Under the pieces are notes generated by a model. It was not told the DNA's origin, did no database searches, and worked only from the letters and a program-made list of their open reading frames with translations. From Candidatus Gastranaerophilales bacterium (lineage in GTDB: Bacteria > Cyanobacteriota > Vampirovibrionia > Gastranaerophilales > Gastranaerophilaceae), in the NCBI GenBank assembly GCA_944324285.1, contig CALUVR010000006.1:1-64000 (forward strand): a stretch of DNA of 64,000 nt. Direction: 5' to 3'. The translations under genes and the position numbers were made by a program. Of this stretch, positions 1 to 62,592 are shown piece after piece (the stretch's first letter is position 1; each line of letters opens with the position of its first letter).

Positions 1-77
1 CCGGAGTCGAACCGGCACGTGGGGTGAACCACACCAGATTTTGAGTCTGGCACGTCTACCAATTTCATCACTTCGGC
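1..77 (-). tRNA. tRNA-Leu (CAA), 3' end cut by window
   Basis: Read on the minus strand, the gene opens with acceptor strand GCCGAAG, has a D-arm with TTGGTAGA, and an anticodon stem CCAGA/TCTGG closing loop CTCAAAA, which gives anticodon CAA. A long variable arm (GTGG..CCAC) follows, as in class II tRNAs, then the T-arm with GGTTCGACTCC. The last T-stem base, the acceptor 3' strand and any CCA lie before position 1. The long variable arm and CAA anticodon together support leucine. Confidence 0.93.
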
Positions 78-30179: not shown

Positions 30180-30760
30180 GAAAATTTATTTTTCTTATTA
30201 AGTCTATTTCTTTTCTTTTGTGGCGATGCAAAAGAAAAGAAATAGACGAAAGAAAAGAAAACTCGCGACCAAAAGAAACGAGTCAGCAGAAACCAAGGTT
30301 TCCGCACCTTCCTTTGACCAGGTTGCGGAAGGTTTATATATAATCCCCCCTTCAAAACTTTACAAGTGGGGTAAAGTCAAAGCCTCACTTGTAAAGTGAC
30401 CGTAGGTTGGGCATACCTGCCCAACAATCATTTCGGAATCGCATTGTCATTACACAGCCATACGGGGATGCCGCACTGCCCCCCTCACCCGCCCAGTGGG
30501 CACCCTCTCCCTCAAGGGGAGAGGGGATATGATTTACCCCCCCCCCTTGTAAGGTAGGTGGCGCAGCATAAGTGCCGGAGGGGTTTCTGGCGAGCGTGCG
30601 GCGTAGCCGCGATAGCGAGCATATAAGGTTGAAGGCTTTGCCTTCAACTTCTGCCCTTTGGTTCCGCGGCGCGCAGCGCCGCTGTTTCTTTGGCGTGTTT
30701 TTCTTTTTCGGTTCACTTTTTCTTTTTTTATCGCAATAAAAAAGAAAAAGTGAACGTATC
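30180..30760. repeat. palindrome-packed non-coding island
   Basis: The 857-bp gap between glyQ and the next gene is richer in GC than its surroundings and contains at least seven perfect inverted repeats. They are 19-bp arms at 30202-30220/30229-30247; 12-bp at 30357-30368/30386-30397; TTGGGCA at 30407/30418; 9-bp CCCTCTCCC at 30503/30517; GTTGAAGG at 30628/30641; GCGGCGC at 30666/30676; and 18-bp at 30711-30728/30738-30755. A C10 tract lies at 30537-30546. Two open frames here are not believable genes. It resembles an accumulation of small palindromic (REP/MITE-like) elements. Confidence 0.7.
30481..30526. repeat. bipartite palindromic element, copy E1 (intergenic)
   Basis: Begins CCCCTCACCC, then a small hairpin GCCCAGTGGGC, then the core CCCTCTCCC-TCAA-GGGGAGAGGG. 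The same plan, with a different first hairpin, recurs in copies E2-E5 within the radical-SAM gene (60316, 60438, 61592, 61784). Confidence 0.75.
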
Positions 30761-59709: not shown

Positions 59710-62592
59710 ATGGATTGTTTTTTTAGAGATTATCACGAAGCCTTATTTAAATGTAATAAGCCTTACCAGTACGTAGGCGGAGAATTTTTATCTTATAACA
59801 AGGATTTCGATAGTGCAAAAGTAAGGTTTGCATTTTGTTTTCCTGATAAATATGAAATCGGGATAAGTAATCTCGGGGTAAGGGTTTTATATGATTTAGT
59901 CAACCGGCATGAAGGGTTTATGGCGGATAGAGCATATGCGCCGGAACCTGATTTTAAGCCAAAAGAACTTTACGGACTGGAAAGTAAAAGAAGGATAAAA
60001 GATTTTGATGCGGTCGGGTTTTCGCTCCAATATGAAATGGCATATCCGACTGTATTAAAAATGCTTGAGATGGCGGGAATTCCGTATAAAAACGCTGACC
60101 GCACAGATGATGACCCGATAATTATAGCAGGCGGCCCTTGCGCATTTAACCCGCTGCCTTTAGCGGATTTTATAGACGTATTTATGATAGGGGACGGAGA
60201 GGACAGTATTATTGAGGTATGCGAAATTTTAGAAAAAACAAAGGGCATGCCGCGAGAAGAAAGAATTAAAGCATTATGCGAAAAAATCCCCCCTGCCGTG
60301 AGTTCGTCAAATAAACCCCTCCTCGAAATCAAAGATTTCGGTCCTCCCTCAAGGGGAGGACAAAAGCAGGTGCATCCTGATACAGGAAAACAAAGATCCG
60401 GAGGGTTTACTGAACAATCCGGACGCAGTGAAATTTTCCTCGCCCCTTGCGGGAGAGGGTGTCACGAAGTGACAGGTGAGGGGTTCAAAAATAGCGGACG
60501 ATGGTCAAAACTCACAGGCGGCACGGTTACCAAACGGATTGCGCAATTAACTTACGAAACAGCCCTGAAATCTTATCCTATACCGTTTTCGTCATCGGTT
60601 CAGGATAGAGCTGTAGTGGAAATCAGAAGAGGCTGCGGAAGAATGTGCCGTTTCTGCCAGCCCGGACACGTGACACTTCCTATAAGAGAGCGTTCAGCAG
60701 AAGATATTATTAAAATCGCAAAAGAACTCGTTAAAAATACCGGTTATGACGAATATTCGCTTCTTTCGCTTTCTTCAAACGATTATGCGAATATAAATGA
60801 AGTTATAAAAGAACTTGCCATTGATTTTAATAAGAAAAAAATCTCCGTATCGCTCCCGAGCCAGCGAATTGACGGGTTTAACCTAGAACTTGCAAATCTT
60901 GTGCAGAGTGTAAGAAAATCCACAATGACACTTGCGCCGGAAGCAGGTTCCCAGCGGCTTCGCGACGTTATCAAGAAAAATATCACTGAAGAGATGATTT
61001 TAAATGCAGTTACAACGCTTTACGAAAACGGCTGGTCGAGGATTAAGTTTTACTTTATATGCGGACTTCCGACAGAAACTTTGGATGATATGGATGAAAT
61101 GGCAGAACTTTTCAGAAAAATCCGTCACCGCTGCCGCATGATAAAAAAAGAAAAAGGGTTAACTCACGGCATGGAATTAACCTGTACGCTTTCGATTTTT
61201 GTACCGAAACCGTTCACCCCGTTCCAGTGGTGCCCTCAGATGAATTTAGACAAAGTCACCGAACACATAAAATATTTAAAAGAACAAGTTAAGACAATTA
61301 AGGGTGTAAAAATTAATTACCACGAAAAATACGTATCGCAGCTTGAAGCCGTCCTGACGCGCGGCGACGAAAGCCTTTGCAAGTACATAGAAGCTCTTTA
61401 TAAAAAAGGCTGCTACCTTGATGCTTGGGGAGAATATTTTAATAAAGATATCTGGTATGAAACCGCGGAAGAACTCGGGATTAATCTTGCAGAACTTGCA
61501 GAAAAAGAGTATGACTTAGAAAAACCGCTTCCGTGGGATTTTATAAACATCGGTGTTGATAAAGAATGGTTCCAAAATGAATACAAAAACGCCCTCGCCC
61601 CTTGCGGGAGAGGGTGTCGCGAAGCGACGGGTGAGGGGTCACATATCGTTCCGACATGCCAGACCGGCTGCGTAAACTGCGGTGTTTGTAAGAATTTAAA
61701 AACTCATAAAGTTATGGCAAAACCGTATAAAGCCGCCGCTGATGCCTGCAATGACGTTGAGGCTAACTTTTCAACCAAAAGCACCCCTCACCCCTACCCC
61801 TCTCCCGCAAGGGGCAAGGGGAAGAGCAAAAAGCCGGATTGCTTTGCTGATGCTCATAATGACGTTGAGGTTACCCATATACAGCAAGTGGCAAAAGAAC
61901 TTCACACGTCACCCCTCACTCTTCACCCGATAAAATTTCGCATCAAGCTTACCAAAACAGGAATTTTAAAATATTTCTCCCATCTGGATTGGCAGAATAC
62001 CTTTTTGAAAGCGCTGGCGCGTACGGATTTGAATGTCGCGTTTACTCAAGGGTTTAACCCGACAATGAAAGTATCACTGGGGATTGCTCTCCCGCTTTTT
62101 GAAGAAAGTATCACAGAACTTGTTGATATTGAACTTTTAGACAACATTACACCGGAAGAACTTAAACTAAAGTTGGAAAAAGTTCTCCCGCCGCAATCAG
62201 AAATACTAAGTATTGTTAAAATTGATAAATCTGCTCCCGCTATTGATATTACGGCACAATGGGCGGAATATGAGATAACTTCTGTAAATGAAAATCTTTA
62301 CGATTTTGACAAATTAAAGTATAATACAGACAGAGTTTTGTCTTTCGAAGAAATTTTTATCGAAAAGAAAAACAAAAAAGGTTTAATCAAAAAAACAGAC
62401 ATAAAACCGGCAATTATGTCACACAGATATGAAGGTAAAAGTCTGTTCATAGTACTAAAAACTGGTCAGAGTACCGGAGATAATGCAATATCCGCATTAA
62501 GGGCTGACGTTTTAATGAACGTTATTGCGCCGGATGTATTGTTTAATATCAAACGTACACGGTTCTTTGACAAAGATTTAAGAGAATTATAA
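59710..62592 (+). CDS. radical SAM protein fused to DUF2344, carrying palindromic inserts
   Basis: 960 aa. A B12-binding-like N-terminus (FAFCFPDKYEIGISNLGVRVL) leads to GCGRMCRFCQPGH (~residues 308-320), the CxxxCxxC cluster motif, matching the TIGR03960 radical-SAM family. The last ~240 residues (FRIKLTKTGILKYFSHLDW) are DUF2344 (TIGR03936), often a separate protein. Several in-frame stretches do not belong to either family: ~residues 203-262, 628-643 and 692-706, where the DNA holds palindromic elements E2-E5. The core motifs are intact, so it is probably functional. Precedes an RNase E/G gene, a common order in bacteria. GGAAAG site before the ATG. Confidence 0.87.
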   Translation: MDCFFRDYHEALFKCNKPYQYVGGEFLSYNKDFDSAKVRFAFCFPDKYEIGISNLGVRVLYDLVNRHEGFMADRAYAPEPDFKPKELYGLESKRRIKDFDAVGFSLQYEMAYPTVLKMLEMAGIPYKNADRTDDDPIIIAGGPCAFNPLPLADFIDVFMIGDGEDSIIEVCEILEKTKGMPREERIKALCEKIPPAVSSSNKPLLEIKDFGPPSRGGQKQVHPDTGKQRSGGFTEQSGRSEIFLAPCGRGCHEVTGEGFKNSGRWSKLTGGTVTKRIAQLTYETALKSYPIPFSSSVQDRAVVEIRRGCGRMCRFCQPGHVTLPIRERSAEDIIKIAKELVKNTGYDEYSLLSLSSNDYANINEVIKELAIDFNKKKISVSLPSQRIDGFNLELANLVQSVRKSTMTLAPEAGSQRLRDVIKKNITEEMILNAVTTLYENGWSRIKFYFICGLPTETLDDMDEMAELFRKIRHRCRMIKKEKGLTHGMELTCTLSIFVPKPFTPFQWCPQMNLDKVTEHIKYLKEQVKTIKGVKINYHEKYVSQLEAVLTRGDESLCKYIEALYKKGCYLDAWGEYFNKDIWYETAEELGINLAELAEKEYDLEKPLPWDFINIGVDKEWFQNEYKNALAPCGRGCREATGEGSHIVPTCQTGCVNCGVCKNLKTHKVMAKPYKAAADACNDVEANFSTKSTPHPYPSPARGKGKSKKPDCFADAHNDVEVTHIQQVAKELHTSPLTLHPIKFRIKLTKTGILKYFSHLDWQNTFLKALARTDLNVAFTQGFNPTMKVSLGIALPLFEESITELVDIELLDNITPEELKLKLEKVLPPQSEILSIVKIDKSAPAIDITAQWAEYEITSVNENLYDFDKLKYNTDRVLSFEEIFIEKKNKKGLIKKTDIKPAIMSHRYEGKSLFIVLKTGQSTGDNAISALRADVLMNVIAPDVLFNIKRTRFFDKDLREL
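60316..60361. repeat. palindromic element E2, inside the radical-SAM gene
   Basis: CCCCTCCT, then hairpin CGAAATC/GATTTCG, then core GTCCTCCC-TCAA-GGGGAGGAC. It is in frame and translated as part of the extra segment before the radical-SAM domain. Confidence 0.72.
60438..60483. repeat. palindromic element E3, inside the radical-SAM gene
   Basis: Opposite orientation to E1: core CCCCTTGCGGGAGAGGG, hairpin GTCACGAAGTGAC, end GGTGAGGGG. Translated as LAPCGRGCHEVTGEG. Confidence 0.78.
61592..61638. repeat. palindromic element E4, inside the radical-SAM gene
   Basis: Nearly the same as E3 with hairpin GTCGCGAAGCGAC; three bases changed against E3 and both arms still pair. Translated as LAPCGRGCREATGEG, placed just before the C-x3-C-x2-C-x2-C segment. 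Confidence 0.78.
61738..61873 (+). repeat. 108-bp-period direct repeat flanking E5
   Basis: A 28-bp sequence, GCTGATGC-N4-AATGACGTTGAGG-N-TA, occurs at 61738-61765 and 61846-61873, exactly 108 bp (36 codons) apart, with E5 between. It could be a duplicated insertion target or a slippage product. Confidence 0.7.
61784..61827. repeat. palindromic element E5, inside the radical-SAM gene
   Basis: CCCCTCACCCCT, then CCCCTCTCCCGCAAGGGG and AAGGGGAAGAG; a shortened first hairpin. Translated as TPHPYPSPARGKG, in the linker before DUF2344. Confidence 0.72.

Follow-up and report, generated by a model that had tools for sequence, protein, structure and literature searches.

Short palindromes that spread through bacterial genomes and into their genes are known from several systems. 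Repetitive extragenic palindromes (REPs), served by a REP-associated tyrosine transposase (RAYT), reach tens to hundreds of copies per genome, flank a small single-domain enzyme, and also occur as solo copies, some of them genic. REPs of the CGTC type spread in genomes and genes without a linked RAYT, and double insertions into single genes, DNA-repair genes included, are on record (uvrA and uvrB; PMC3733652). Rickettsia palindromic elements (RPEs, ~150 bp) are translated as in-frame inserts at tolerated positions of unrelated housekeeping genes. We analysed a 64,000-nt stretch of a Candidatus Gastranaerophilales genome (contig CALUVR010000006.1, hereafter the window), in which four palindromic elements, E2–E5, lie in frame within one radical S-adenosylmethionine (radical-SAM) gene. 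Because intragenic REPs, also two per gene, are already known (PMC3733652), in-frame palindromes alone are not new, and the four would by themselves make a strong case of a known kind. We consider it likely, with a probability of roughly two in three, that E2–E5 are solo copies, resembling miniature inverted-repeat transposable elements (MITEs), of a palindromic element family linked to the nuclease domain DUF559, a family that in its nuclease-bearing form reads palindrome–DUF559–inverted palindrome.

On the best reading, this family would function like a REP/RAYT system with an unrelated nuclease. However, in place of an HUH Y1 transposase the enzyme here is a Vsr-like nuclease of the PD-(D/E)XK kind, the repeat is built from three arms and a slot hairpin that varies, and the nuclease itself lies in frame in host genes. 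No GTAG or CGTC hairpin-end tag was noticed on reading the listed copies, which was not a systematic scan, and the link between an HUH Y1 enzyme and the palindromes that marks REP/RAYT systems was not found, the genome's own Y1_Tnp lying beside other palindromes and copies being abundant in genomes without Y1. The RPEs are alike in habit; they belong to an unrelated lineage, and the elements here, at 36–75 bp, are shorter and come with a linked candidate for the mobilising enzyme, such as the literature covered does not name for RPEs. The likeness to Rickettsia elements seen by an earlier reading of the window (the original prediction) held in effect, but intragenic palindromes are also known outside Rickettsia (PMC3733652). 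The tag of CGTC REPs was not noticed here on that reading, and DUF559 is a candidate for the enzyme missing from CGTC-REP-like families. As with MITEs, presumably non-autonomous copies outnumber the enzyme-bearing form. The same palindromes bound DUF559 cassettes, and the PriA and AddA sites occur in solo and composite forms. Unlike MITEs, the unit is itself a palindrome, and neither a target-site duplication nor a simple terminal inverted repeat was found at solo copies. Inteins and the Vsr-like homing endonucleases of mobile introns share a nuclease domain held in frame at fixed sites of essential genes, as well as the sequence relation to 3r3p described below, but here there is no splicing domain, the insert remains in the protein, DNA palindromes form the bounds, and stand-alone genes exist too. 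Caulobacter VsrA (DUF559; PMC12907096) and Escherichia coli YcjD (PMC1189080) belong to the same or a related domain family; in the accessible parts of these papers they are treated as mismatch-repair or PD-(D/E)XK nucleases, and a link to palindromic repeats is not reported. A literature search for DUF559 together with palindromic repeats returned nothing linking them, with a coverage incomplete enough that an earlier description is possible.

The genome (a Gastranaerophilales assembly of 2.03 Mb in 55 contigs, G000) has exactly two DUF559 (PF04480) domains, both between inverted element copies. One is in frame inside PriA, where Pfam detected DUF559 alone and no splicing domain between the PriA parts, and the other is fused to the C-terminus of a HydE-like protein. 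In a family-wide set of 72 DUF559 domains with their flanks, C/G-rich hairpins stood on both sides of 61 domains and on one side of 11, compared with both sides of 8 out of 577 size-matched control ORFs (open reading frames; p=6e-65). A motif-free test gave an inverted flank-match score of at least 16 for 20/32 DUF559 domains and for 1/400 random intervals. The flanking pairs were inverted in 54 of 57 cases (p=4e-13), and a domain's own partner was the best of the 72 downstream flanks in 24 cases, with ~1 expected. The boundaries of DUF559 are two whole units in inverted orientation, and not the halves of a single one. The core variants agreed between solo copies and DUF559 flanks, being mostly CTCCCACAAGGGG in genome G086 and mostly CTCCCTCAAGGGG in G059 and G108. 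The inverted palindromes that surround DUF559 in many bacteria, together with the in-frame inserts, point to a kind of mobile DNA, not linked up before, with its residence in essential genes.

DUF559 is a small endonuclease of a Vsr-related family of the PD-(D/E)XK kind (PMC1189080, PMC12907096). Five residues of catalytic type (E, D, E-x-D and H: E21, D50, E61, D63 and H67) were invariant in all 72 domains, and since this includes the copies inside host genes, nuclease activity is predicted to have been kept there. Structural relatives were 3hrl (endonuclease-like) and 3r3p (a mobile intron protein; E 0.007), and PADLOC gave weak matches only, the most telling being to a homing-endonuclease model. 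Larger proteins harbour at least 25 of the 72 domains in frame, internally or at one end, namely PriA, IspE, AddA, an M14-type peptidase, HydE and a DNA methylase (hosts besides PriA were named by sequence reading). In a DUF559 tree, built on short sequences, the six PriA copies formed one clade (99/87). We also observed DUF559 in frame within M14-type carboxypeptidase and IspE at the same positions in several genera (L192, L259, L258, L181; L253, L250, L195, L260, L254, L173); in L173 (G038:C3) a single IspE frame carries two palindrome-bounded DUF559 domains, one at the N-terminal end and one in an internal linker.

The states of single sites were also compared. Within one genus, the PriA site was composite, with the nuclease, in G000 and G102, carried only a palindrome (solo) in G076, and was empty in G010 and G048. 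The AddA site holds a solo copy in G000 and DUF559 in G051. Beyond the order, plasmid-borne DUF559 genes from three phyla (Deinococcus, Azospirillum, Sinorhizobium, Sphingomonas, Qipengyuania and cyanobacteria) were mostly flanked alike, 11/14 as judged by eye and 10/14 by an inverted-match score of at least 17. In five of five plasmid stretches of 40 kb from beyond the phylum and its neighbours, DUF559 had the top inverted-flank score among all coding sequences of its stretch (152 controls).

The radical-SAM host gene is a single uninterrupted frame of 960 codons with the Pfam domains Radical_SAM_N2, Radical_SAM and DUF2344 and the NCBIfam match TIGR03960 (Table 1). It contains the core CTCCC(T/G)CAAGGGG four times, at 60344 (+), 60443 (-), 61598 (-) and 61802 (+); three of these palindrome cores agree fully over 16 nt, compared with 0.13 matches in shuffled sequences. 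E2 folds as DNA with z=-4.3. E4 is 94% identical with E3, immediately precedes the PTCQTGCVNCGVC cysteine cluster, and differs from E3 in its slot arms by a compensated change, bearing out the claim that the arms differ between copies and stay paired. AlphaFold2 gave a pLDDT (predicted local distance difference test) below 50 over most of each insert (194–260, 633–635 plus 638–642, and 687–737), with the remainder folded. The open frame, the four cores and the homologue alignment described below confirm four in-frame palindromic elements in one gene, and the expectation of tolerated positions held as well. The original prediction needed correction in detail: E3 and E4 lie on the minus strand, E2 is a sister type with the different slot hairpin CGAAATCAAAGATTTCG, and segment A also contains the remnant of another repeat (see below). 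Insert-spanning peptides predicted by translation include LAPCGRGCHEVTGEG, PSPARGEGGNAR and the PriA–DUF559 junctions. An Rfam search found no structured-RNA family matching the elements, the truncated tRNA at the window edge being its only match.

Table 1. Elements, host gene and other features, in window positions
Feature	Position	Strand	Description or basis
Host gene (960 aa), TIGR03960 B12-binding radical SAM protein with fused DUF2344/TIGR03936	59710..62592	+	ORF, Pfam, NCBIfam
E2, palindromic element, sister type (CCCCTCCT-CGAAATCAAAGATTTCG-GTCCTCCCTCAAGGGGAGGAC)	60316..60361	+	Translated KPLLEIKDFGPPSRGGQ
Remnant of older repeat (..CCGGAGGGTTT.., peptide GGFTEQ)	60393..60418	+	Intact at same site in L001/L011/L004
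E3, A''-slot-A-loop-A' palindrome, slot TGTCAC/GTGACA	60438..60484	-	Translated LAPCGRGCHEVTGEG
E4, slot TGTCGC/GCGACA	61592..61639	-	Translated LAPCGRGCREATGEG
E5, palindrome without slot hairpin, in linker to DUF2344	61784..61821	+	Translated TPHPYPSPARGKG
Probable remnant of a fourth repeat kind, GGATTGCTTTGCTGATGCTCATAATGACG similar to genomic GTCATTGCGAGGCGTTAGCCGAAGCAATC repeat	61835..61863	+	By-eye reading, weak
E1, intergenic copy, slot CGCCCAGTGGGC, core at 30507	30491..30526	+	Repeat collection, fold
tRNA cut by window edge	1..77	-	Rfam RF00005

Across the genome the core CTCCCNCAAGGGG has 79 exact copies and 127 with at most one mismatch, and a reversed-pattern control across the 2.03 Mb gave 0 matches; thus the elements form a genome-wide repeat family and are not due to chance. 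The copies, read from 456 kb of surrounding stretches, are all built as CCCCTCACC - slot - CCCTCTCCC - T/GCAA - GGGGAGAGGG. This layout has three related arms, A'', A and A'; the slot separates A'' from A, and A' is able to pair with either A or A''. The slot is empty (2–4 nt), 11–13 nt or 32–39 nt long, and when filled is usually a hairpin with co-varying arms (GGCAC/GTGCC, GGGAC/GTCCC, GTCGC/GCGAC, GTCAC/GTGAC and others). Among copies of the E2 sister type, nine of 11 lie within a separate GTTAAC-ended unit, and two coding copies lack the GTTAAC ends. A MITE of ~100 bp with the ends GTTAACTTTTCATTGC / GCAATAGAAAGTTAACAATG was seen to carry an E2-type palindrome (G000 C1:113062, C2:46495, C10:34793 and others); at several places its position is within the loop of a second palindrome, and the loop sequence is then repeated on either side of it.

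We examined 111 copies and found 16 of them in frame within genes, spread over 11 genes, so the elements reach at least ten genes besides the one originally noticed; that they also bound a DUF559 gene, and that two of their sites are hot spots (see below), was likewise missing from the original prediction. Several copies occur in the radical-SAM gene (four), PriA (two) and a GlcF-like protein (two), and one copy each in QueA, polyprenyl synthase, Dxr, alanyl-tRNA synthetase (AlaRS), an AMP-ligase, an AddA-like helicase and a PD-(D/E)XK protein, with one more at the C-terminal end of a solute-binding protein. Pfam supplied the names of the radical-SAM protein, PriA, QueA, the solute-binding protein and the AMP-ligase, and sequence reading those of the remaining hosts. 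The AlaRS segment, exactly 42 bp, is missing in the same-genus orthologues of G076, G048 and G010, and those of QueA, IspA, Dxr and AddA are missing, at least partly, in same-genus orthologues; the PriA, AlaRS and Dxr insertions are common to G000 and G102. A core variant that is free of stops in any frame was found in 14/16 coding copies compared with 29/92 others (p=3e-5), a bias that fits selection for readable copies. The translated insert peptides include PSPARGEG, LAPCGRG and PPSRGG.

An alignment of 80 relatives of the radical-SAM protein showed that nearly all lack the insert segments. Sites A (residues 190–262), B (625–647) and C (672–740) measure 72, 22 and 68 aa in the window protein, compared with homologue medians of 5, 14 and 27, and in L051, whose N-terminal part is 92% identical, all inserts are absent, a clean empty state. 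E3 and E4 are common to L001 and L011, and E5 is also present in L001, the L011 contig stopping before the E5 site; presumably these three were inherited by descent. The palindromes in L001 and L011 are mostly intact, so that the sign named beforehand as telling against insertion, namely homologues with the same segments in non-palindromic codons, was not seen. E2 is absent in L001 and L011; there, and in L004, a PLYKGG..GGF-type repeat occupies its place, and segment A of the window protein keeps a remnant of this repeat. E2 sits in or over this older insertion. Because L001, L011 and L004 carry the older repeat without E2, E2 is younger than E3 and the youngest insertion. In L006, L010, L012, L013, L030 and L076 a different in-frame insert (EDKKIGGYE..LPSCPSAILSS) was found at sites A and B. 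It is purine/pyrimidine-rich, hairpin-like and unrelated to the E elements, and has 42 matches in the L006 genome. Since unrelated repeats occupy the same positions in other lineages, sites A and B are recurrent landing places.

How would such elements move? We propose that DUF559 cuts or nicks the terminal hairpins, as cruciforms or single-stranded hairpins, acting in cis to have the cassette copied and in trans to have solo palindromes copied. Insertion would proceed via break repair and not by a classical transposase with a fixed target duplication. Insertions would be kept where the frame is preserved and the site lies in a loop, giving translated peptides, and some genes (PriA, IspE, AddA, M14 peptidase) would thereby gain a whole nuclease domain within a host protein that is made and works as a fusion. 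Residence in an essential gene may in turn shield the nuclease frame from decay. In its general form, which we hold to be probable, the proposal is of a new class of mobile DNA in which Vsr-like DUF559 nucleases move hairpin-bounded cassettes and, in trans, solo palindromes, which persist in frame in loops of essential proteins; it would extend over at least Cyanobacteriota, Deinococcota and Alphaproteobacteria and be the source of many widespread CCCTC...GAGGG palindromes.

Solo copies co-occurred with the nuclease. At least three were present in 24 of 38 genomes with DUF559 and in five of 79 without it (p=9e-11), and among genomes lacking a Y1 transposase in 10/14 compared with 2/64 (p=5e-8), the Fisher values overstating independence because the genomes are related and no phylogenetic correction was applied. 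Several further points also weigh against our proposal. Eleven genomes with DUF559 have no exact core, part of which diverged cores may explain, and five without DUF559 have at least three copies. Neither a target-site duplication nor a fixed end nucleotide was found in the AlaRS and PriA empty-site comparisons, and the inverted pairs occur in either polarity, with A'' outside mostly in genes and inside mostly in stand-alone copies. Because both polarities occur, a simple terminal-repeat model does not predict the pairs; the lack of target duplications and the two polarities together disfavour a classical transposase, and our proposal explains neither. DUF559 may also have host roles, because a Caulobacter member is proposed to be a mismatch-repair nuclease (PMC12907096). 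Finally, mobilisation by DUF559 is an inference of ours, no movement having been observed.

An ordinary REP/RAYT arrangement, with the genome's Y1 (HUH) transposase moving the palindromes and DUF559 as a passenger or palindrome parasite, appears unlikely. One Y1_Tnp gene is indeed present, REPs also occur in frame within genes (PMC3733652), and insertion sequence (IS) elements are able to insert into REPs (PMC8450116). However, the Y1_Tnp gene is flanked by different palindromes (TTGGGCAGGTATGCCCAACC) that form a repeat family of their own, two copy-rich genomes, G027 (88 copies) and G020 (61 copies), have no Y1 match, and given DUF559, Y1 contributes nothing (14/24 compared with 10/14, p=0.5); DUF559 also stands between two complete units, in place of halves of one. 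With Y1 beside other palindromes and copy-rich genomes lacking it, RAYT was rejected as the main mobiliser. We regard as quite unlikely a convergent system of the Rickettsia type, in which selfish in-frame inserts have some other mobiliser and meet DUF559 merely through a shared habitat in loops and intergenic spaces. In its favour are the same habit, with in-frame inserts in tolerated loops of many unrelated housekeeping genes (PMC10969869), and the stop-free bias of coding copies. Against it, a shared habitat does not produce palindromes that match, are inverted and stand within tens of bases to either side of a single gene family across three phyla.

It is improbable that the inserts are old functional parts of the protein, such as exapted linkers, that are immobile and kept for function. 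The sharing of E3 and E4 with L001 and L011, and of E5 with L001, with the frame kept, and the occurrence of some insert at the site in several lineages would suit this idea; against it, most homologues carry no insert at all, the inserts are predicted to be disordered, the nearest relatives lack E2, and unrelated repeats stand there in other lineages. An assembly or binning artefact comes to mind with a genome in 55 contigs and relatives that are metagenome assemblies, but is very improbable indeed, as E3 and E4 recur in L001 and L011, two related species assembled independently, E5 recurs in L001, and the PriA, AlaRS and Dxr insertions were found in both G000 and G102.

No mobiliser is known, in the literature covered, for CGTC-type REPs or for in-frame RPE inserts, and a linked nuclease makes the question testable. 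If our proposal holds, it suggests what a large family of domains of unknown function may do, it explains peptides that recur and look spurious (PSPARGEG and LPQGE, for example) as translated mobile DNA, and it shows how a selfish nuclease can hide in PriA, IspE or AddA with no need of splicing.

This genome houses two palindrome systems side by side, one linked to DUF559 and the other to a Y1 enzyme. The RAYT-like Y1_Tnp gene lies at C39:5603-5968 in L149 (G000:C39:1-6281), and its palindrome TTGGGCAGGTATGCCCAACC has 23 exact copies in the 456 kb. Further abundant repeats were noticed in G000 contigs (e.g. L081, L082 and L088), namely CCTCCCTTTGTAAGGGAGGTGGCACG..GTGCCGGAGGGTTTT and GTCATTGCGAGGCGTTAGCCGAAGCAATCC.

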